Below are positions 49,972 through 60,257 of a DNA stretch of 64,000 nt, one piece after another. The position numbers were made by a program, and so were the translations under genes. Position 1 is the stretch's first letter; each line of letters begins with the position of its first letter. This stretch comes from Agaricicola taiwanensis (GTDB lineage Bacteria > Pseudomonadota > Alphaproteobacteria > Rhizobiales > Methylopilaceae), in NCBI RefSeq assembly GCF_014635245.1, contig NZ_BMCP01000002.1:124001-188000 (forward strand), written 5' to 3'. The notes under the pieces are model-generated. The model ran no database searches and was not told where the DNA came from. It saw only the letters and a program-made list of their open reading frames with translations.

Positions 49972-52326
49972 TTATTCCGCGGCTTCTCTCAGCTCCCCGC
50001 GCAGCACGCGGGCAGCTTCCACCATGTTGATGAGGGCAGGGCGCACCTCGTCCCATTTGCGGGTCTTCAACCCGCAGTCCGGGTTGACCCAGATCTGCTC
50101 CGGGGACAGATGCCGCCCCGCGCGCTGCAGGAGGTCGACCATCTCGGCCGTGGCTGGGCAGCGCGGCGAGTGGATGTCGTAAACGCCGGGCCCGATGTCG
50201 TTCGGATAGCGGTAGCTGACGAAGGCTTCCAACAGCTCCATCTTGGACCGTGAGGTCTCGATGGAGATGACATCGGCGTCCATGTTGCCGATGGCGGTGA
50301 TGATGTCGTTGAACTCCGAGTAGCACATATGGGTGTGGATCTGGGTTTCATCCCTGACGCCCGAGGCCGTGATGCGGAAGCTCTCCACCGCCCAGTCCAA
50401 ATAGTGCTGCCAATCGGCGCGACGGAGCGGCAGGCCCTCGCGCAGGGCGGCCTCGTCGATCTGGATGATCTTCGCGCCTGCGGCTTCGAGGTCGATCACC
50501 TCATCACGAATGGCGAGTGCGATCTGGCGGCAGACCGCATCACGGGTGACATCGTCGCGGACGAAAGACCAGTTGAGAATGGTGACCGGGCCCGTGAGCA
50601 TGCCCTTCATGGGTTTTTCCGCCAGGGACTGCGCGTGCTTCCAAGTGTCGACCGTTATGGGTTCTGGGCGCGAGACATCACCGAAGAGCAGCGGTGGCCG
50701 CACGTAGCGCGAACCATAACTTTGCACCCAGCCGTGCTGGGTGAAGGCGAAGCCTGACAGGCGCTCGCCGAAATACTGCACCATGTCGTTGCGCTCGAAC
50801 TCGCCGTGGACCAGCACATCGAGGCCGATCTCTTCCTGCCACTGCACGCAGGCCGCCGTTTCCCTGGCAAGGAAGGCATCATAATCCGCCTGACTGAGCT
50901 GGCCCTTGCCGAACTGGGAGCGAGCCTTGCGCACCTCCGGCGTCTGGGGGAAAGAGCCGATGGTGGTTGTCGGGTAGGAGGGGAGATCGAGCCTCTCCTG
51001 CTGCTTCGCCCGCCGCTCAATGAAAGGCGTGGCCCTTATCGCCATGTCAGGCGTCAGCGCACCCATCCTCTTGGCCACCGCGCTGTTGTGCACCTTTGGC
51101 GAGGTGCGTCGCGATTCGGCTGCACTGGATGAGGCCCTGAGCTCTTCCGCTGCGGCATCCCGGCCATCGGTCAGGGCGCGGCCGAGAACGGAAAGCTCGC
51201 TCATCTTCTGAACCGCGAAGGCGAGCCAACTCTTGAGATCGGGATCGAGGCGCATTTCCTGTTCGAGGTCGATGGGCACATGGAGCAGCGAGCACGACGG
51301 CGCCAGCATCACATGATCGCGGCCGCGCTGAGCTACCACGGGCTCGATCCGTTCGAGGATCTTCTCCAGATCGGCGCGCCAGATGTTGCGGCCGTCGATG
51401 ATCCCGAGCGAAAGGACGAGACCTTCCCGTGCCTTCTCCACCACGGCATCAAGCTGATCAGCGCCCCGCACAAGGTCGAGATGGAGGCCGGCCACAGGAA
51501 GGCTGAGCGCCGTCTCGAGGTTGTTGCCGAGATCGCCGAAATAGGTCGTCAGCATGATCTTCACGTTGGGCAGCGCGCGGGCGAGGACGGCATAGGTATC
51601 GCGCAGCGCCCGACGAGCCGTATCATCGAGATCGAGCACCAGGCACGGCTCGTCGATCTGCACCCATTCCGCGCCGTTGGCCGAAAGGCGCCGCAGAACC
51701 TCGGTATAGACGGGCAGGATGTTCGGCAGCAGCGAGAGTGGGTTGAGCGTGGCGTCTTTCGACTTGCCGAGTTTGAGGAAGGTGACGGGCCCGAGCAGGA
51801 CAGGGCGCGTCTGATAGCCAAGCGCCTTTGCCTCCCGGTACTCATCCATCGGCTTGGTCGAGCTGAGAGTGAAGGTCTGACCACGCGTGAACTCAGGCAC
51901 CATGTAATGGTAATTGGTGTCGAACCACTTGGTCATTTCCAGAGCCGGAACGCCGTGGCCGGCGCCATGGCTATGCCCGTGGGCGCAGGCTTCGCCTGAT
52001 TGTTGCTGGCTGCCACGCGCCATGGCGAAATAGGTGTCCAGCGAAACCTCGCCGCCGTTCCAGCCGTAGATCTCAGGGATGGCGCCGACCATGCAGCTGG
52101 TGTCGAGCACCTGATCGTAGAGCGAGAAGTCGTTGGACGGGATTTCGGTCACGCCGAGCGCGTGCTGGCGCGCCCAGTTGGCGGCGCGCAGTTCTGCCGC
52201 CGTTGCAAGCAGCGCTGCTGCGTCGGTCTTGCCCGACCAGTAGCTTTCGAGCGCCAGCTTTAATTCGCGGCGCGGCCCGATGCGCGGGACGCCAAGGCTG
52301 GCTATGGAAAGAGATTTCTTAGACAT
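49972..52326 (-). CDS. metE: Cobalamin-independent methionine synthase MetE
   Basis: Zinc enzyme that transfers a methyl group from 5-methyltetrahydropteroyl-triglutamate to homocysteine. The 784-residue protein is full length with both barrels: N-terminal VPRIGPRRELKLALESYW, substrate region SYPTTTIGSFPQTPEVR, and zinc ligands in IHTHMCYSEF and NPDCGLKTRKW. ATG 52326 is the conserved start; the open frame continues upstream through the riboswitch but is not coding. A cobalamin riboswitch in the leader should repress it when B12 is present. Confidence 0.95.
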   Translation of the reverse strand: MSKKSLSIASLGVPRIGPRRELKLALESYWSGKTDAAALLATAAELRAANWARQHALGVTEIPSNDFSLYDQVLDTSCMVGAIPEIYGWNGGEVSLDTYFAMARGSQQQSGEACAHGHSHGAGHGVPALEMTKWFDTNYHYMVPEFTRGQTFTLSSTKPMDEYREAKALGYQTRPVLLGPVTFLKLGKSKDATLNPLSLLPNILPVYTEVLRRLSANGAEWVQIDEPCLVLDLDDTARRALRDTYAVLARALPNVKIMLTTYFGDLGNNLETALSLPVAGLHLDLVRGADQLDAVVEKAREGLVLSLGIIDGRNIWRADLEKILERIEPVVAQRGRDHVMLAPSCSLLHVPIDLEQEMRLDPDLKSWLAFAVQKMSELSVLGRALTDGRDAAAEELRASSSAAESRRTSPKVHNSAVAKRMGALTPDMAIRATPFIERRAKQQERLDLPSYPTTTIGSFPQTPEVRKARSQFGKGQLSQADYDAFLARETAACVQWQEEIGLDVLVHGEFERNDMVQYFGERLSGFAFTQHGWVQSYGSRYVRPPLLFGDVSRPEPITVDTWKHAQSLAEKPMKGMLTGPVTILNWSFVRDDVTRDAVCRQIALAIRDEVIDLEAAGAKIIQIDEAALREGLPLRRADWQHYLDWAVESFRITASGVRDETQIHTHMCYSEFNDIITAIGNMDADVISIETSRSKMELLEAFVSYRYPNDIGPGVYDIHSPRCPATAEMVDLLQRAGRHLSPEQIWVNPDCGLKTRKWDEVRPALINMVEAARVLRGELREAAE

Positions 52327-52407
52327 CGGCTTGAACCCCAGAAGTTTGGGGGCAAAGGCCGAGCGGACGCGTGTTCGGCGACAAGCAAACGCCGGCCGCA
52401 GTCCTCC

Positions 52408-52440
52408 GCGACACACTGGGACACCCCGCCCGTGGACGTT
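52408..52440 (-). other. Conserved 33-base block downstream of the metE riboswitch
   Basis: On the minus strand this block (ACGTCCACGGGCGGGGTG at its core) matches 30 of 33 bases with 56062-56094 downstream of the nrdA riboswitch. It lies outside the conserved cobalamin aptamer and before the metE start, so it may be a shared expression platform. Confidence 0.6.
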
Positions 52441-52612
52441 ATCTCGCCGGGGCAGGTCTCCTGGCTCGCGGGTCAAAGCTTGGGGCTGTCTTCCCGGCAT
52501 CGCCGCCAGTGACATCTGAGCCCTTCGCTCATCGCTTACAGTTGCGGGGGCAGCTCCGGCATTAAACCGGATTCCCTCTTAGCTCCCGACGCAGTGTCGG
52601 AAGAACCTCGAC
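52437..52612 (-). promoter_or_regulatory. Cobalamin riboswitch of metE
   Basis: The minus strand carries the ordered conserved elements of the adenosylcobalamin aptamer. AGAGGGAATCCGG is at about 52567-52579, the B12 box GCCGGAGCTGCCCCCGCAACTG at 52539-52560 (in pieces), and GAGCCAGGAGACCTGCC at 52451-52467. It lies in the 422-base gap between metE and GH15 and precedes metE by about 110 bases. Confidence 0.95.
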
Positions 52613-52748
52613 AACTTCAGGGTGGCTTAAGCAGGGCCATCCGTCAAGGTGCATATAAGGACATCTTTATATCTCTAATCGGCATTCGGCCTTTCATTTC
52701 CCGACAGGCCTCCTATGTTTTTCCAAGAGCGGCAACGGGGAGACAAGC

Positions 52749-54572
52749 TTGACCATCCGAATCGAAGACTACGCGATGATCGGTGACTGCGAGACGGCGG
52801 CCCTCGTATCGCACAACGGGTCGATCGACTGGCTCTGCTTTCCCCGATTTGATTCCTCTGCCTGTTTTGCCGCTCTGCTGGGAAATCCGGACAACGGACG
52901 CTGGCTGCTGACGCCGAAGGGACCATTGCTCCACCGCAGCAGGCGCTATCGCCGTGACACGCTGATCCTGGAGACGGAATACGAAACCGCCACAGGGGCG
53001 GCGACGGTGATCGACTTCATGCCGCTGCGCGACGGCTCGCGCGATCTCATCCGCATTGTTGCCGGAACGCGGGGCGAGGTCGAATTCGAGGTGGAGTTCA
53101 CCCTGCGCTGTGATTACGGACGCAGTGTCCCCTGGATCTCGCATGCCGATGATGGGGCGTTGGTGGCCATCGCCGGCCCGGACATGCTCGTTCTGCGCAC
53201 GCCTGTCGATCTCAAGGGCGAGGACATGCACACCGTCGGCACCTTCACTGTCTCGGCGGGTGAGAGGGTGCCATTCGTCCTGACGCATGCCGCCTCCCAT
53301 CTCGCCCCCCCGCCAGGCCGCAAGCCGTTCGGCGCGCTGGAGGAGACGGAGGCCTTCTGGCGAGACTTCACCGGCCGCTGTCCCAATGTCGGTCCCTGGA
53401 CCGAGGATGTGAAGCGCTCGCTGATCACGCTGAAGGCGCTGACCTATATGCCGACGGGCGGCATCGTGGCGGCCGCCACGACCTCCTTGCCCGAGCACAT
53501 CGGCGGCACGCGCAACTGGGACTATCGCATCTGCTGGCTGCGCGATGCCACCATGACGCTGCTCGCCTTCATGAAGCTCGGCTATTACGAGGAGGCGGAG
53601 GCCTGGCGCAACTGGCTGCTCCGCGCTGTCGCCGGCGATCCGGGCCAGATGCAGATCATGTACGGCCTGTCGGGCGAGCGGAACCTTCTGGAATGGGAAG
53701 TGCCCTGGCTGGAGGGCTTTCAGAATTCCAAGCCGGTGCGCGTCGGCAACGCCGCCGCCGAGCAATTCCAGCTCGATGTCTATGGCGAAGTGGCCGATGC
53801 CATGACGCAAGCCCTGCGCGGTGGGCTGCCCCGGCATCCGCGCACGGGTGCGCTGGCCGAAGTCATCATGCCCTATCTGGAGAAAGCCTGGCGGGAGCCG
53901 GACGAAGGCATCTGGGAGGTGCGGGGCCCGCGTCAGCACTTCACCCATTCAAAGGTGATGGCCTGGGTTGCCTTCGACCGCATCGCCACGCTTGCCGCCG
54001 AGACAGAAGGTGGCGACGAACTCGCTCGCCGATGGCGCCGCGCGGCCGATGAAATTCACGCCGATGTCTGCGAAAAAGGGTTTGATCCTGAACTGAACAC
54101 CTTCGTTCAAGCCTACGGATCCAAGGCCTTGGACGCCAGCCTGCTGCATATTCCGATGATGGGGTTCCTGCCACCGGACGATCCGCGGGTGATCGGCCTG
54201 GTAGCCGCCATCGAGCAGCACCTGACGGTGGACGGCCTCGTTCAGCGATATTCCACACATATGACAAACGATGGTTTGCCACCCGGCGAGGGCGTTTTCA
54301 TCGCGTGCAGCTTCTGGCTGGCCGACGTGCTCAACATGCAGGGCCGCAAGGAAGACGCGTTGCGCCTGTTCGAACGGCTGCGGGGGCTTGCCAACGACGT
54401 CGGTCTGATGTCGGAGGAGTACGACCCGGCGGCCAGGCAGATGCTGGGCAACTTCCCGCAGGCTTTCAGTCACGTGGGATTGATCAACACGGCGCTGAAC
54501 CTCGCCAGCCACCATGGACCGGCCGAGGAACGTGCGAAAACGGCCGAGGAGGCTGTTTTCGAGGCCGACTGA
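52749..54572 (+). CDS. Glycoside hydrolase family 15 protein (glucoamylase/trehalase-like)
   Basis: A 607-residue GH15 enzyme: N-terminal beta domain (IEDYAMIGDCETAALVSHNG, SIDWLCFPRFDSSACF) and the alpha/alpha barrel (GTRNWDYRICWLRDATMTL, QIMYGLSGERNLLEWEVPWL, EGIWEVRGPRQHFTHSKVM, LPPGEGVFIACSFWLADVL). The catalytic Glu pair is expected in the EGIWE and GEGVF segments. This bacterial subgroup includes trehalases and alpha-glucosidases; the substrate is not certain. The start is TTG 52749 behind GGGGAGA. No signal peptide, so cytosolic. Confidence 0.88.
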   Translation: MTIRIEDYAMIGDCETAALVSHNGSIDWLCFPRFDSSACFAALLGNPDNGRWLLTPKGPLLHRSRRYRRDTLILETEYETATGAATVIDFMPLRDGSRDLIRIVAGTRGEVEFEVEFTLRCDYGRSVPWISHADDGALVAIAGPDMLVLRTPVDLKGEDMHTVGTFTVSAGERVPFVLTHAASHLAPPPGRKPFGALEETEAFWRDFTGRCPNVGPWTEDVKRSLITLKALTYMPTGGIVAAATTSLPEHIGGTRNWDYRICWLRDATMTLLAFMKLGYYEEAEAWRNWLLRAVAGDPGQMQIMYGLSGERNLLEWEVPWLEGFQNSKPVRVGNAAAEQFQLDVYGEVADAMTQALRGGLPRHPRTGALAEVIMPYLEKAWREPDEGIWEVRGPRQHFTHSKVMAWVAFDRIATLAAETEGGDELARRWRRAADEIHADVCEKGFDPELNTFVQAYGSKALDASLLHIPMMGFLPPDDPRVIGLVAAIEQHLTVDGLVQRYSTHMTNDGLPPGEGVFIACSFWLADVLNMQGRKEDALRLFERLRGLANDVGLMSEEYDPAARQMLGNFPQAFSHVGLINTALNLASHHGPAEERAKTAEEAVFEAD

Positions 54573-54638
54573 GATCGAGCTTCTTGTGCCGAACGGCACG
54601 TTGAAGCTACAGAGGCCGGGGGAGCGGGGACCAGGCTG

Positions 54639-55055
54639 ATGAAAATCTCAAAGATCGCGGTGGCGTGCGCCTTCGTATTGATGCTGTCCGCATGCCAGTC
54701 AACTTCAGGGGGATCCGCTGGACAGGCGGCTCGAGCACATCACCATTCAGATAGGGTTCTTCTCGAGCAGAGAAGGCGGCTGGGCGACATCCCCGAGCGC
54801 GTCAGGCCTGTGGACGTGCGCTTCACAGGAAGTGCTTCTGGAATCCGGGAGTTCAAGCGGCGGATTAGTCGCGACGGCAAATGGAAGATTGTTCAGACGG
54901 TTTCTCTTGAGGGTGGTCGTTGGGCACTCGACATTCAGCGCTCGCAAGCTGTGACTCCGGAAGACGTCCGCGGCTTGGCCAAGGCCGGTATCGAGGCTGA
55001 ACTCCTGCACGACATTGAGTATGACGGCTGGGGCGCTGTTATCGTCACGAAATGA
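54639..55055 (+). CDS. Small lipoprotein with an RraB-like domain
   Basis: A 138-residue lipoprotein: signal MKISKIAVACAFVLMLSACQ with lipobox LSAC. After a Gly/Ala/His linker, the C-terminal 80 residues (VRFTGSASGIREFKRRI, WALDIQRSQAVTPEDVRGLA, AELLHDIEYDGWGAVIV) resemble the RraB/RNase E-inhibitor fold, whose signature is a terminal GxYDGW segment. Location in the periplasmic side of an envelope membrane would rule out RNase E as its target. The fold assignment is from pattern only. It follows the GH15 gene by 66 bases. Confidence 0.6.
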   Translation: MKISKIAVACAFVLMLSACQSTSGGSAGQAARAHHHSDRVLLEQRRRLGDIPERVRPVDVRFTGSASGIREFKRRISRDGKWKIVQTVSLEGGRWALDIQRSQAVTPEDVRGLAKAGIEAELLHDIEYDGWGAVIVTK

Positions 55056-55164
55056 GATTTCGCGCGCGACCACCCCTCAGCTTTCGATCACCGTTCCTGC
55101 CTTGAAAAAGCAGTCTGAGGATTTGATTCCGATTTTGACGGTAGCGCTTTGATGCTACTCGGCT

Positions 55165-55653
55165 TTAAGCAAAGCCCGCGCGCTTCAACCGTACGAAGAT
55201 CAGGTCCAGCGCCGAGAGGAAAGCGGACCGATCCTTGGCCGCGAAGGGGCGGGGGCCTCCGGTGACTTCACCGGCGGAACGCAACTGGTCCATGAGATTG
55301 CGGGTCGCCAAGGTCATGCCGATGCTTTCCTCGGTAAAGGGCTTTCCCTTCGGCGAGAGCACATCGGCGCCCGCCGCCACGCAGCGCGCGGCCAGCGGGA
55401 TGTCGGTGGTGATGACCACGGTGCCGCGACGGGCGCGTTCGGCGATCCAGTCGTCGGCCACATCGGGGCCGGCCGGGACGATCACGCGCTCGATCAGCGG
55501 ATCGCGCGGCACCTGCATGAAGCTGTTCGCCACGACATAGGTTTTGACGCCGTGGCGTACGGCCACGCGATAGGTCTCGTCCTTCACGGGGCAGGCGTCG
55601 GCGTCGATGTAGACCAGGATCTTTCGATCGTCGGAGGCAGTTTGGTTTTCCAT
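55165..55653 (-). CDS. DUF188 (YaiI/YqxD, UPF0178) family protein
   Basis: A 162-residue protein with a PIN-like fold family signature: [74 protein letters not shown] and [17 protein letters not shown]. Acidic residues suggest a metal-binding nuclease-like site, but the cellular role of the family is not established. ATG 55653 starts the conserved region; the open frame upstream is unconserved. It is transcribed away from the nrdA riboswitch. Confidence 0.88.
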
Positions 55654-55860
55654 ACCGTGGGGAATAGCGCGGGTTTGGCGGCAGGGAAACAGGAGAGGGC
55701 GATCGCCGCCAACCGGCGGCCGCCCCGACAGTTTCAACGCCGCTTCAAAGCGCCAGTCCACCTCTCGCGAAATTCCTGCCTCTGGGGATTGCGGTGAAAT
55801 GTCGATGCTCGCTCCACGACCTATTGACGGCTTCATGCTTCTGGATACTAAATCTAGTCA

Positions 55861-56049
55861 TCGTGGTGCTCCCGACTCAGGATCGGGCTGGGAGCTAAGA
55901 GGGAATCCGGTAGGGCTGAGAGCAGCCTGATCCGGAGCTGCCCCCGCAACTGTGAGCGGTGAGCGTGTGCCGACCGGAGGCCACTGGTGTTTCGACACCG
56001 GGAAGGCCGGCACGACGCGACGATCCGCGAGCCAGGAGACCTGCCACGA
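55861..56049 (+). promoter_or_regulatory. Cobalamin riboswitch of nrdAB
   Basis: Full aptamer: P1 strands TCGTGG (55861-55866) and CCACGA (56044-56049) pair perfectly, enclosing AGAGGGAATCCGG (55898-55910), the B12 box CCGGAGCTGCCCCCGCAACTG and GCGAGCCAGGAGACCTGCC (56027-56045). It sits 131 bases before the nrdA ATG within a 526-base gap (55654-56179); the part before 55861 holds nothing else recognised. Confidence 0.96.
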
Positions 56050-56061
56050 CAAGTAAGTTTG

Positions 56062-56094
56062 AACGTCCACGGGCGGGGTGTACCGGTGGGTCGC
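56062..56094 (+). other. Conserved 33-base block downstream of the nrdA riboswitch
   Basis: Matches 30 of 33 bases with the block following the metE riboswitch (52440 down to 52408); the first 20 bases are identical. It begins 12 bases after the P1 stem closes. Confidence 0.6.
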
Positions 56095-56179
56095 TTGGCG
56101 AAGCGTGCGCACAGCCATGTGCGCCCGCCGTCTTGCCGTCCCTTCGGCCCATCTCCCAAAACAGTTGGGAAGAATGCCG

Positions 56180-59053
56180 ATGTCTCTCACTCTCGAAACC
56201 AGATCCGCCGATGGCGCCGGCCCCGCTCCAGTGGCACCGACGATCGCGCGCACGCCTGCCGAACCGGGATTCCAGGTCATCCGCCGCAACGGCGGAGTGA
56301 CGCCCTTCGACGCCACCAAGATCACCGTTGCCCTGACCAAGGCCTTCCTGGCTGTGGAAGGACATAGCGCGGCGGCCTCACGCCGCGTGCATGAGAGCGT
56401 CGAGGAGATGACGAGTCAGGTCGTCACCGCCCTGATGCGCCGCGCCGATACCGGCCGCACCTTCCACATCGAGGACATTCAGGACCAGGTGGAACTGGCC
56501 CTGATGCGCAGTGAGCACCACAAGGTGGCCCGCGCCTATGTGCTCTACCGCGAGGAGCGGGCTCGCGAGCGGTTGCAGGCCAAGGAAGAAACGCGGGAGG
56601 AGGCGTTCAGCCCCGCTCTGCGCATGAAAAACGCCGAGGGCGACCTCGTGCCGCTTAACGCCGCGCGCCTGACGATGCTGATCCGGGAAGCCTGCGAAGG
56701 CCTCGCCGACGTTTCGGCCGAGCCTGTACTCACCGAGACCAAGCGCAACCTTTATGATGGCATCTCAATCAAGGAACTGGCCCAGGCGCCGATCCTGGCC
56801 GCCCGCACGCTGATCGAGACCGAGCCGAACTACTCCTATGTTTCGGCCCGCCTGCTGCTCGACCTCTTGCGCCGTGAGGTTCTCACCGGCGTCATGGGAG
56901 CGCCTGAAGAGGCCACCCAGGCGCAGATGACCAAGCGTTACGCCGAATATTTCCCGGCCTATATCGCCAAGGGCATCCACGTCGATCTGCTCGACCCCGA
57001 GCTTGGCCGTTTTGACCTGGCGAGGCTCGCCGCCGCGCTGAAGCCGGAGCGCGACCTCAACTTCCAGTTCCTCGGCCTTCAGACGCTCTATGACCGCTAC
57101 TTCCTGCATCATCGCGGCACCCGCATCGAGCTGCCGCAGGCCTTCTTCATGCGCGTCGCCATGGGTCTTGCCCTGCGCGAGATCGATCGTGAAGCGAAAG
57201 CCATTGAGTTCTACGACCTGCTGTCGTCCTTCGACTTCATGGCCTCCACCCCGACGCTGTTCAACTCCGGCACCCAGCGTTCGCAGCTCTCGTCCTGCTT
57301 CCTGACCACCGTTGCCGATGACCTCGACGGCATCTTCAAGGCCATCAAGGACAATGCGCTGCTCGCCAAATATTCCGGCGGTCTCGGTAACGACTGGACG
57401 CCGGTGCGCGGCCTCGGCGCCCACATCAAGGGCACCAACGGCGAGAGCCAGGGCGTTGTGCCCTTCCTGAAGGTCGCCAACGACACGGCCATCGCCGTGA
57501 ACCAGGGCGGCAAACGCAAGGGCGCGGTCTGCGCTTACCTCGAGACCTGGCACATCGACCTCGAGGAATTCCTCGACCTCAGGAAGAACACGGGCGACGA
57601 TCGTCGCCGCACCCATGACATGAACACCGCAAACTGGGTGCCCGACCTCTTCATGCAGCGCGTGGAGGAAAACGGCGACTGGACCCTGTTCTCGCCCGAC
57701 GAGACGCCCGACCTGCACGACCTCTACGGTCCGGCCTTCGCCAAGGCCTATGAGGCCTATGAGGCGAAAGCGGCACGCGGCGAGATGCGCGTCTACAAGC
57801 AGATCAAGGCGCTGGACCTGTGGCGGCGCATGCTGACCATGCTGTTCGAGACCGGCCATCCCTGGGTCACCTTCAAGGATCCCTGCAATATCCGGTCGCC
57901 CCAGGGCCATGTGGGCGTGGTGCATTCGTCCAACCTCTGCACCGAGATCACGCTCAACACGTCGAAGGACGAGGTGGCGGTCTGCAACCTGGGTTCCATC
58001 AACCTCGCCCAGCATGTGACGCCCCAAGGCCTCGACATGGAGCGCCTGGCGCGCACGGTGAAGACGGCGACGCGGATGCTCGACAATGTCATCGACATCA
58101 ACTTCTACACCATCCCGGAGGCGCGGAACTCCAACCTGAAGCACCGGCCGGTCGGCCTTGGTCTCATGGGCTTCCAGGACGCGCTGCACACGCTGCGCAT
58201 CCCGACGGAATCGCAGGAAGCGGTGGAATTTGCCGACCGCAGCATGGAGGCGATCTCCTACCATGCCATCTCCGGCTCGGTGGATCTTGCCGAGGAGCGT
58301 GGCCGCTATCCGTCCTTCCAAGGCTCGCTCTGGTCCAAGGGCGTGCTGCCGATCGACAGCATTGAGCGGCTGGCGGAGGCGCGCGGCGGCGTGCTGGAGA
58401 TGGATCGTTCGCAGACGCTCGATTGGGAAGCCCTGCGCAAGCGGGTGAAGAAGAGCGGCATGCGCAACTCCAACGTCATGGCGATCGCGCCCACGGCGAC
58501 GATCTCCAACATCTGCGGCGTCGCCCAGTCCATCGAGCCCGCCTATCGCAACCTCTATGTGAAGTCGAACATGTCGGGCGATTTCACGCTGGTGAACCCG
58601 GCGCTGGTCAAGGACCTGAAGGAGCGCGGCCTCTGGGACGAGGTGATGATCTCGGACCTGAAGTATTTCGACGGCAGCCTTGGCGCCATCGACCGTGTGC
58701 CCGATGACCTGAAGGCGCTCTATGCGACCGCCTTCGAGATCGACAGCTCCTGGCTGATCGAGGCGGCGTCGCGCCGGCAGAAGTGGATCGACCAGGCGCA
58801 GTCGCTCAACCTCTATATCGCCAACCCGAACGGCAAGAAGCTGGACGCGCTCTATCGCTTCGCCTGGAAGCGCGGCCTGAAGACCACCTATTACCTGCGT
58901 TCGCAGAGCGCGACGCATGTGGAGAAATCGACGCTGAAGGGGACGGACGGCAAGCTGAACGCCGTTTCTGCCACGGTGGCGACGGCGGCTGAGCCCATCA
59001 CGGTTCCGAACGCCTGCTCCATCGACGATCCCACCTGTGAGGCTTGCCAGTAA
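56180..59053 (+). CDS. nrdA: Class I ribonucleotide reductase large subunit NrdA
   Basis: Reduces ribonucleoside diphosphates to deoxy forms together with NrdB. The 957-residue protein has an N-terminal ATP cone (about 25-125, FQVIRRNGGVTPFDATKITV). The ten-stranded barrel has the active-site residues: redox Cys in QRSQLSSCFLTT, Asn-Cys-Glu in SSNLCTEITL and the partner Cys in AVCNLGSINLAQ. The C terminus ends in a Cys pair (PTCEACQ) for reactivation by thioredoxin or glutaredoxin. ATG 56180 has GGGAAG seven bases upstream; ATG 56174 is possible. Controlled by a cobalamin riboswitch; nrdB follows 82 bases later. Confidence 0.95.
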   Translation: MSLTLETRSADGAGPAPVAPTIARTPAEPGFQVIRRNGGVTPFDATKITVALTKAFLAVEGHSAAASRRVHESVEEMTSQVVTALMRRADTGRTFHIEDIQDQVELALMRSEHHKVARAYVLYREERARERLQAKEETREEAFSPALRMKNAEGDLVPLNAARLTMLIREACEGLADVSAEPVLTETKRNLYDGISIKELAQAPILAARTLIETEPNYSYVSARLLLDLLRREVLTGVMGAPEEATQAQMTKRYAEYFPAYIAKGIHVDLLDPELGRFDLARLAAALKPERDLNFQFLGLQTLYDRYFLHHRGTRIELPQAFFMRVAMGLALREIDREAKAIEFYDLLSSFDFMASTPTLFNSGTQRSQLSSCFLTTVADDLDGIFKAIKDNALLAKYSGGLGNDWTPVRGLGAHIKGTNGESQGVVPFLKVANDTAIAVNQGGKRKGAVCAYLETWHIDLEEFLDLRKNTGDDRRRTHDMNTANWVPDLFMQRVEENGDWTLFSPDETPDLHDLYGPAFAKAYEAYEAKAARGEMRVYKQIKALDLWRRMLTMLFETGHPWVTFKDPCNIRSPQGHVGVVHSSNLCTEITLNTSKDEVAVCNLGSINLAQHVTPQGLDMERLARTVKTATRMLDNVIDINFYTIPEARNSNLKHRPVGLGLMGFQDALHTLRIPTESQEAVEFADRSMEAISYHAISGSVDLAEERGRYPSFQGSLWSKGVLPIDSIERLAEARGGVLEMDRSQTLDWEALRKRVKKSGMRNSNVMAIAPTATISNICGVAQSIEPAYRNLYVKSNMSGDFTLVNPALVKDLKERGLWDEVMISDLKYFDGSLGAIDRVPDDLKALYATAFEIDSSWLIEAASRRQKWIDQAQSLNLYIANPNGKKLDALYRFAWKRGLKTTYYLRSQSATHVEKSTLKGTDGKLNAVSATVATAAEPITVPNACSIDDPTCEACQ

Positions 59054-59135: not shown

Positions 59136-60257
59136 ATGCTCGACTGGTCCGAACCGTCTGCAACTCCCAAAGTCCCCGTGGCCCCGCAGGCTGGCCCCAA
59201 GGCCGACGCCACCGGCCTCGGTGAGATCGAACGCGGCGGTGCCCGGGTTTCGGTCGACGACAAGGCCATGATCAACTGCCGCGCCGACGTGAACCAGCTC
59301 CTGCCGCTGAAATACAAATGGGCTTGGGACAAGTACCTCGCCGGCTGCAACAACCATTGGATGCCGACCGAAGTCTCCATGCAGGCGGACATCGCGCTGT
59401 GGAAGTCGCGCGACGGCCTGACCGAGGACGAGCGCCGCGCCATCAAACGCAACCTCGGCTTTTTCGCCGCCTCCGAGAGCCTCGTCGCCAACAACATCGT
59501 GCTGGCGATCTACCGCCACCTGACCAACCCCGAGTGCCGGCAGTATCTCTTGCGCCAAGCCTTCGAGGAGGCGGTGCACACCCACACCTTCCAGTACATC
59601 GTGGAGAGCCTTGGCCTCGATGAGGGTGAACTCTTCAACATGTACCGTGAGGTGCCCTCGATCACGGACAAGGCTGCCTGGGCGCTGAAGCACACCCAGA
59701 ACCTGGAGAACCCAGACTTCCAAACGGGCACGCTTGAGAGCGATCAGGCCTTCGTGCGCGATCTCATTGCCTTCTACGTCATCTTCGAAGGCATGTGGTT
59801 CTATACGGGCTTTGCACAGATCCTGTCGCTGGGCCGCCGCAACAAGATGGTCGGCATCGCCGAGCAGTACCAGTACATCCTGCGCGACGAGAGCATCCAT
59901 CTGAACTTCGGCATCGACGTGATCAACCAGATCAAGATCGAGAACCCGCAGATCTGGACCAAGACCTTCCAGGATGAGGTCCGTCAGATGGTGAAGGAGG
60001 CCGCCGAGCTGGAAGCCGCCTATGGCCGCGATACCATGCCGCGTGGCTTCCTCGGCCTGAACCCGGCGCTGTGCGAGCAGTACATGCACTTCATCGCCAA
60101 CCGTCGCTGCCAGCAGATCGGCCTCGCGCCTGTGTTCGCCGAGACGGAGAACCCGTTCCCCTGGATGTCTGAGGCCATGGACCTCAAGAAGGAGAAGAAC
60201 TTCTTCGAAACCCGCGTCATCGAATATCAGAACGGCGGCTCGCTGGCCTGGGACTGA
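59136..60257 (+). CDS. nrdB: Ribonucleotide reductase small subunit, class Ic type
   Basis: Makes the radical-generating metal site for NrdA. The 373-residue ferritin-like protein has metal ligands Glu114, Glu145, His148, Glu218, Glu252 and His255. The residue four after His148, a Tyr in class Ia enzymes, is Phe152, followed by Tyr154 ([14 protein letters not shown]). Every spacing equals that of Chlamydia R2 (E89, E120, H123, F127, Y129, E193, E227, H230) with a constant offset of 25, so this is predicted to be a class Ic Mn/Fe enzyme without a tyrosyl radical. Cotranscribed with nrdA. Confidence 0.94.

Follow-up and report, generated by a model that had tools for sequence, protein, structure and literature searches.

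Cobalamin riboswitches are known to contain, besides their aptamer, a kissing element between two loops, L5 of the aptamer and L13 of the hairpin P13 (PMC10653944, PMC9600662, PMC10907184). In env8 the ribosome site lies within the P13 loop itself. In the metE riboswitch of Priestia megaterium, the 3' side of P13 pairs, when the RNA is unbound, with the 5' side of the OFF hairpin, an intrinsic terminator (PMC10653944). More generally, translational riboswitches of the sequestor/antisequestor type are turned off when the ligand breaks the antisequestor pairing, and most riboswitches switch through the P1 stem (PMC2258182). Here we describe two leaders, in front of metE (cobalamin-independent methionine synthase) and nrdAB (ribonucleotide reductase, RNR), in Agaricicola taiwanensis (positions 124,001 to 188,000 of contig NZ_BMCP01000002.1, assembly GCF_014635245.1; this 64,000-nucleotide stretch is the window). 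They have in common with the described cobalamin riboswitches (RF00174; PMC10907184, PMC9600662) the same aptamer, L5, a P13/L13 hairpin directly after P1 and L5-L13 complementarity, and would share with the sequestor/antisequestor type the OFF logic. They would depart from env8 in that P13 acts on a separate hairpin, from the P. megaterium switch, whose logic is parallel, in that the OFF hairpin covers the ribosome site and L13 itself joins the alternative pairing, and from most riboswitches in that switching passes through an L5-captured P13. From sequence comparison and predicted folds we conclude, with a probability of about 0.73, that the L5-captured P13/L13 controls a mask of the ribosome site by way of an antisequestor, and that this control is probably translational.

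The sequence-only reading of the window had drawn attention to a 33-base block shared by the two leaders, with 30 of 33 bases in agreement and the first 20 identical. Direct reading of both strands gave the same figures: the metE-side block is AACGTCCACGGGCGGGGTGTCCCAGTGTGTCGC (minus strand, 52440-52408) and the nrdA-side block AACGTCCACGGGCGGGGTGTACCGGTGGGTCGC (plus strand, 56062-56094). Both lie, as that reading had also placed them, just 3' of P1 of an aptamer that exceeds the RF00174 gathering score of 31.5 bits (metE: 52434..52625, minus strand, 138.7 bits; nrdAB: 55847..56062, plus strand, 129.5 bits); the blocks overlap the Rfam model at its unpaired 3' flank, with their first seven bases on the metE side and their first base on the nrdA side. 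By its sequence, we identify the block as the known P13/L13 hairpin with its L5-kissing loop. The consensus of relatives folds as CGUCCAC-GGG-[CGGGGUGU]-CCC-G-GUGGA-U-CG, i.e. a P13 hairpin with loop L13 (inner brackets); in the window P13 extends over approximately 52438-52409 (metE, minus strand) and 56064-56093 (nrdA, plus strand), with L13, CGGGGTGT, at 52428-52421 and 56074-56081, respectively. The GCGGGG formed by L13 and its neighbour is complementary to the CCCCGC held in L5 of both aptamers (GCTGCCCCCGC; 52544..52554, minus strand, and 55937..55947, plus strand), a statement about complementarity, not contact. In two riboswitches (L113 and L144) a rare L5 variant, CTGTACCCGC, goes with a matching GCGGGT after the aptamer. 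P13 begins 112 bases upstream of the metE start codon and 116 bases upstream of that of nrdA: the ribosome site is not inside the L5-kissed loop, as it is in env8. The general premise of the earlier reading, that expression platforms usually are not conserved, is right as such but does not extend to the P13/L13 hairpin, a regular part of cobalamin riboswitches.

Support for the hairpin itself came from 120 riboswitches of relatives that were chosen by their aptamer alone (weak matches and, among others, genomes G020, G039, G040, G058 and G059 were omitted). The GGGG core was found at the inspected place in 80 of them, and in 69 of these 80 the P13 arms paired better with their own partner than with one from another family (23 of 30 family means, p 0.0022). 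This coevolution of the arms is part of the evidence for P13 of the metE block.

The distribution of the block is narrow. Its 20-mer, at up to three mismatches, has exactly two sites in the 3.76 Mb genome, both in the window (none for the reversed control), and no copy of the block follows a third cobalamin riboswitch, at C2:1186485. A block pattern was searched at up to two mismatches in 397 genomes of the order and matched in 92, with about 142 matches, 72 of them with at most one mismatch; the reversed control gave about 53, so that many of the two-mismatch matches are probably due to chance. We studied 80 matches, 63 with at most one mismatch and 17 with two; seven of the nine other close matches were already in the aptamer-selected set and two, on further G252 contigs, were omitted. 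A B12 box and L5 precede the block in 76 of the 80 (30/30 with no mismatch, 33/33 with one, 13/17 with two), which means that all 63 close matches follow a B12 aptamer. The sequence-only reading had proposed to look for the block after other cobalamin riboswitches of this genome and of relatives; it occurs after aptamers in relatives, though not after the third one of this genome, and at close similarity it was not seen at random genomic places. The gene downstream of the 80 matches is metE in 31 cases, an RNR large-subunit gene in 40 and neither, by our queries, in nine (29, 31 and three for the 63 close ones). Seven of the 40 rows labelled nrdA, and most RNR rows outside the order, match the window NrdA at less than 45%. 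In this genome, a covariance model of the whole platform had no matches but the two in the window, with 150 of 5030 candidates scored. Of 288 genomes of the class that were sampled outside the order, 16 had matches that passed strict filters, 19 in all; an aptamer precedes 17 of these, and six are without a metE or nrdA match. The block appears to be part of a conserved, probably translational platform before metE and RNR genes in the order, rarer elsewhere in the class.

What the platform might act on was sought among leaders with at least 100 bases between block and start codon (74 leaders, 100-128 bases), reduced to one per genus and gene (44 leaders, 17 families). Left out were L267, which duplicates L266, and L293 and L295, which lack a start within 130 bases; the alignment also omits L324 (43 rows), and the start codons of L283, L286, L316 and L036 were set by hand. 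Across families, the metE and nrdA starts are preceded by a conserved string, GCGUCCGCUCGGCCUUUGCCCCCAA-loop-UUGGGGUU-AGCCGAUGUCU, which is a hairpin over the ribosome site: CCCC pairs with GGGG and UCGGC with GCCGA. In the window, this putative sequestor reads TCGGC..CCCC..GGGG..GCCG before metE (52327..52362, minus strand, adjoining the ATG at 52326) and TCGGC..CCCAA..TTGGG..GCCGA before nrdA (56144..56180, plus strand, adjoining the ATG at 56180); both are drawn from the conserved string and from covariation. The covariation score was 0.084 versus 0.066 in shuffled alignments (1 of 500 as high), with five two-sided pairs versus 1.6; the hairpin was more stable than its shuffles (mean z -1.20, 25/44 below -1), and own partners were preferred in 27 of 44 rows when arms were swapped between leaders (p 0.0023).

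The 5' arm of the sequestor and the GCGUCCGC preceding it are complementary to L13 and to the 3' strand of P13, and GCGUCCGC is conserved although it lies far from the aptamer. When the RNA was cut 20 bases before the start codon, the minimum-energy folds joined the stretch 46 to 20 bases upstream of the start to the P13 loop or 3' strand: at least eight bases of the stretch were so paired in 42 of the 44 leaders (16 of 17 families) and at least 12 in 38. The strands predicted to take part in this antisequestor are, in the window, GCGTCCGCTCGGCCTTTGCCC (metE, 52350..52370, minus strand), whose partners in the truncated fold are L13 and the 3' strand of P13, and GCCGTCCCTTCGGCCCATCTCCC (nrdA, 56135..56157, plus strand). 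In the consensus pairing, GGGCGGGGUGUCCCGGUGG-CGC-UGC faces GC-GCG-UCCGCUCGGCCUUUGCCC across a variable linker; summed over the 43 rows, the probabilities of the twelve strongest pairs come to 24-31. Replacing P13 by that of another family lowered the pairing of the stretch from 0.65 to 0.51, the own P13 giving the higher value in 37 of 44 leaders (p 7e-7). The duplex energy likewise favoured the own partner (34/44 leaders, 14/17 families, p 0.0016), and three control pairings in the same swap test showed no own preference (p 0.87-1). Covariation was 0.221 versus 0.194 in shuffles (0 of 500 as high), with ten two-sided pairs versus 7.1 (10 of 500), and the region was more stable than its shuffles (mean z -1.64, 31/44 below -1).

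The mechanism that these pairings suggest would run as follows. Without B12, the downstream strand would on emerging be bound by the 3' strand and loop of P13, so that the ribosome site stays free and translation is on; with B12 bound, L5 would capture L13 and hold P13 closed, and the downstream strand, once released, would fold into the sequestor hairpin and mask the ribosome site. The B12-independent enzymes would then be shut off, leaving their work to the B12-dependent MetH and NrdJ. The model would also account for a block more conserved than a plain hairpin, since the letters of the block take part in three pairings. The functional option raised by the sequence-only reading, a partner of an aptamer loop or a mask of the ribosome site, gains computational support, with L13 GCGGGG complementing L5 CCCCGC.

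Several results weigh against this model. The energy of the duplex between the P13 3' strand and the downstream strand (RNAduplex) is no better than with dinucleotide shuffles (mean z -0.25, n=78), and the window metE duplex is worse than its shuffles (z 0.76), that of the window nrdA standing at z -1.90. With P13 held closed, the predicted accessibility of the ribosome site falls in 59 of 74 leaders, but the change is small (0.381 to 0.340). The stretch from 62 to 46 bases before the start shows no own-partner preference (17/44, p 0.83). Two-sided changes of the antisequestor are confined to the half made with the 3' strand of P13; in the L13 half there are none, and 10 of its 12 pairs are one-sided, in part since L13 was fixed in the search pattern. 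When the register is slid by one to three bases, fewer pairs form (at most 56.2% of cells versus 78.8%) but the numbers of two-sided changes are similar. Applied to whole leaders, RNAalifold returns the core of the sequestor and no antisequestor. For the sequestor, the swap test is weak by family (9/17, p 0.18), and the linker between the block and the start-site elements is no more structured than expected (z -0.21, n=31). For P13, the pattern-selected set gives no covariation (a score that 451 of 500 shuffles reach) and no own-arm preference (24/44, p 0.3); the covariation measure is biased there, because the search pattern fixed one arm. A loose scan for any hairpin with four bases complementing L5 does no better than shuffles (88/93 versus 425/465). 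That P13 alone folds no better than shuffles (mean z 0.08) is to be expected of a stem that needs the kissing contact. Whole-leader folds of the two window leaders gave mixed states and were not used.

Because of these neutral and negative tests, regulation is something that we infer from pairing potential. The small shift in accessibility means that the antisequestor model leans on the order of folding: regulation likely depends on the P13 region, and then the downstream strand, emerging before the GGGG of the ribosome site. A simpler explanation, which we consider unlikely, is that P13/L13 is a kissing hairpin and nothing else, the hairpin at the ribosome site being independent of it or coupled to it otherwise, with no antisequestor. 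It would fit the regular presence of P13/L13 in the riboswitch class, the unremarkable duplex energies, the small change in accessibility and the L13 half without two-sided changes. It would leave unexplained why the P13 3' strand prefers its own downstream strand in 14 of 17 families, why 42 of 44 truncated folds show the alternative pairing and 37 of 44 favour the own over the swapped P13, and why the antisequestor covaries and GCGUCCGC is conserved so far from the aptamer.

The same leader parts are found in the metE leader of Caulobacter crescentus, whose 5' untranslated region (5'UTR) conferred B12-dependent shutoff on an mCherry reporter in vivo, with a K1/2 of 0.062 nM (PMC6538847). It has the block (AACGTCCTCCGGCGGGGTGTCCGG), the strand GCGCGTCC and a hairpin GCCTCGCC..GGCAGAGGC before the ATG, which lies 124 bases from the start of the block; the letters of the sequestor differ from those in the window, and the available part of that paper does not describe the platform. 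In the minimum-energy fold of the leader cut before the 3' arm of the hairpin, GGCGGGGU pairs with GCCUCGCC, which agrees with the prediction for the L13 part; once the leader is complete, folding predicts the start-site hairpin in place of this pairing. As for the P13 3' strand, its partner there is the linker and not GCGCGUCC, to be added to the points against the antisequestor.

It could also be that B12 stops transcription within the leader, through an intrinsic or a Rho-dependent terminator, and that the hairpin at the start site is secondary. The P. megaterium metE riboswitch, which follows a similar pairing logic, is indeed transcriptional, and the Caulobacter result, called translational shutoff by its authors, was obtained with a 5'UTR fusion that taken alone is compatible with termination. 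An intrinsic terminator as the OFF hairpin was looked for and rejected: neither window leader has a terminator-like site, and TTTTT follows the block in only 5 of the 74 leaders. With the conserved hairpin abutting the start codon in addition, control at the level of transcription seems quite unlikely, and we retain the ribosome-site mask.

The other option of the sequence-only reading, that one riboswitch was copied locally, found no support as far as the block is concerned. Local duplication or gene conversion between the nearby riboswitches would account for the identity of two blocks 3.6 kb apart. The similarity of the two window aptamers somewhat exceeds that of cross-family pairs (0.715 versus 0.640), and in a quick tree of 126 aptamers (70 of 123 inner branches unsupported) the window metE aptamer groups with nrdA aptamers (support 92, not starred). 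Yet the two window aptamers are only about 72% alike, and the metE block of a member of another family (L300) is identical to the window metE block at 33 of 33 positions. In the 27 genomes with both genes, the two blocks of a genome are no closer than blocks compared across families (0.764 versus 0.751, p 0.42), while for aptamers the corresponding values are 0.665 and 0.649 (p 0.022). The gene labels, metE against nrdA, cluster on the tree (five changes versus 10-19 in 40 shuffles), as do metE and nrdA together against the other aptamers (four changes versus 31-42 in 40 shuffles). Recent local copying of the block was rejected on the L300 identity, the gene-wise clustering and the own versus cross-family identities, and we hold local duplication or conversion to be very improbable as the source of its identity. 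For the aptamer, an old exchange in the window's family is possible, since the metE aptamer of the window groups with those of nrdA. Divergent metE and nrdA neighbours with riboswitches, a few hundred bases apart, were observed in several relatives (L042/L045, L329/L330, L301/L302, L303/L304).

Family models identify the genes behind the two leaders. metE (49975..52326, minus strand) matches TIGR01371 with 1121.5 bits (cut-off 929.95); nrdA, the RNR large subunit (56180..59053, plus strand), matches NF005544 with 1731.3 bits (cut-off 965), its start at 56180 being chosen by likeness to relatives over an alternative ATG at 56174; and nrdB, the small subunit (59136..60257, plus strand), matches NF005550 with 679.1 bits (cut-off 309). 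Shutting off metE and nrdAB when B12 is present is the expected logic of isozymes. Since the genome has both B12-dependent counterparts, MetH (Met_synt_B12, 422.7 bits) and NrdJ (NrdJ_Z, 461.3 bits, or 561.2 with an in-frame neighbour), such a shutoff is expected here. Between the blocks lie, over approximately 3.6 kb, a gene resembling trehalases (scoring under the curated cut-off), a small open reading frame without family match and a gene of the YaiI/YqxD family. The third cobalamin riboswitch of the genome (L037, G000:C2:1186435-1188198) has a different P13 (TGTGC-GGGGC-GCGCA), and the gene after it resembles TonB-dependent B12 receptors (TIGR01779, 169.7 bits for a 444-residue part, cut-off 599.7).

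A few other features of the leaders were observed. Both genes are open in frame far upstream of their starts, metE into the aptamer (49972-52515, minus strand) and nrdA from 56078 (to 59053, plus strand); among the leaders, 51 of 74 are open in the frame of the gene from block to start, a modest excess over the 39.3 expected from shuffles, seen when a leader peptide was considered. Upstream of the metE aptamer lies a 20-bp palindrome, ATATAAAGATGTCCTTATAT (minus strand, 52653-52672), and a motif ATATAAAGA..TCTTTATAT (at most four substitutions) was found before the aptamer in 28 of 36 metE leaders versus 3 of 43 nrdA leaders. The SahR site is a 20-bp palindrome as well (PMC4239095), and the palindrome here would suit such a site in size. 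By eye, a second type of platform was noticed in L039, L046, L053, L063 and others of the window's family, with CCCTCGGTGGGAGGG hairpins and the start codon about 20-30 bases further; CCGTCGGGTGGACGG hairpins are its counterpart in other families. It is perhaps a short direct mask.

The principle behind the platform is known, and its ribosome-site version with an antisequestor is probably a variant of a known mechanism. A literature search, which did not reach key older papers, gave no description of this platform, and the version may be undescribed. We regard as evenly poised the wider proposal of a portable alphaproteobacterial platform, in which L13 would toggle between L5 and the 5' arm of the ribosome-site hairpin, the P13 5' strand (CGUCCAC) and the antisequestor (GCGUCCGC) being mimics that compete for one strand; one module would then serve both methionine and deoxynucleotide synthesis, inherited with each gene and not copied locally. 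The introduction of PMC10653944 calls the transfer of the signal from cobalamin aptamer to platform unknown, and the paper then dissects two transcriptional switches. A ribosome-site version conserved over many families would be a comparative answer to that question, with testable pairs and an already assayed Caulobacter reporter, and the platform model would extend annotation by marking B12-controlled metE and RNR operons.

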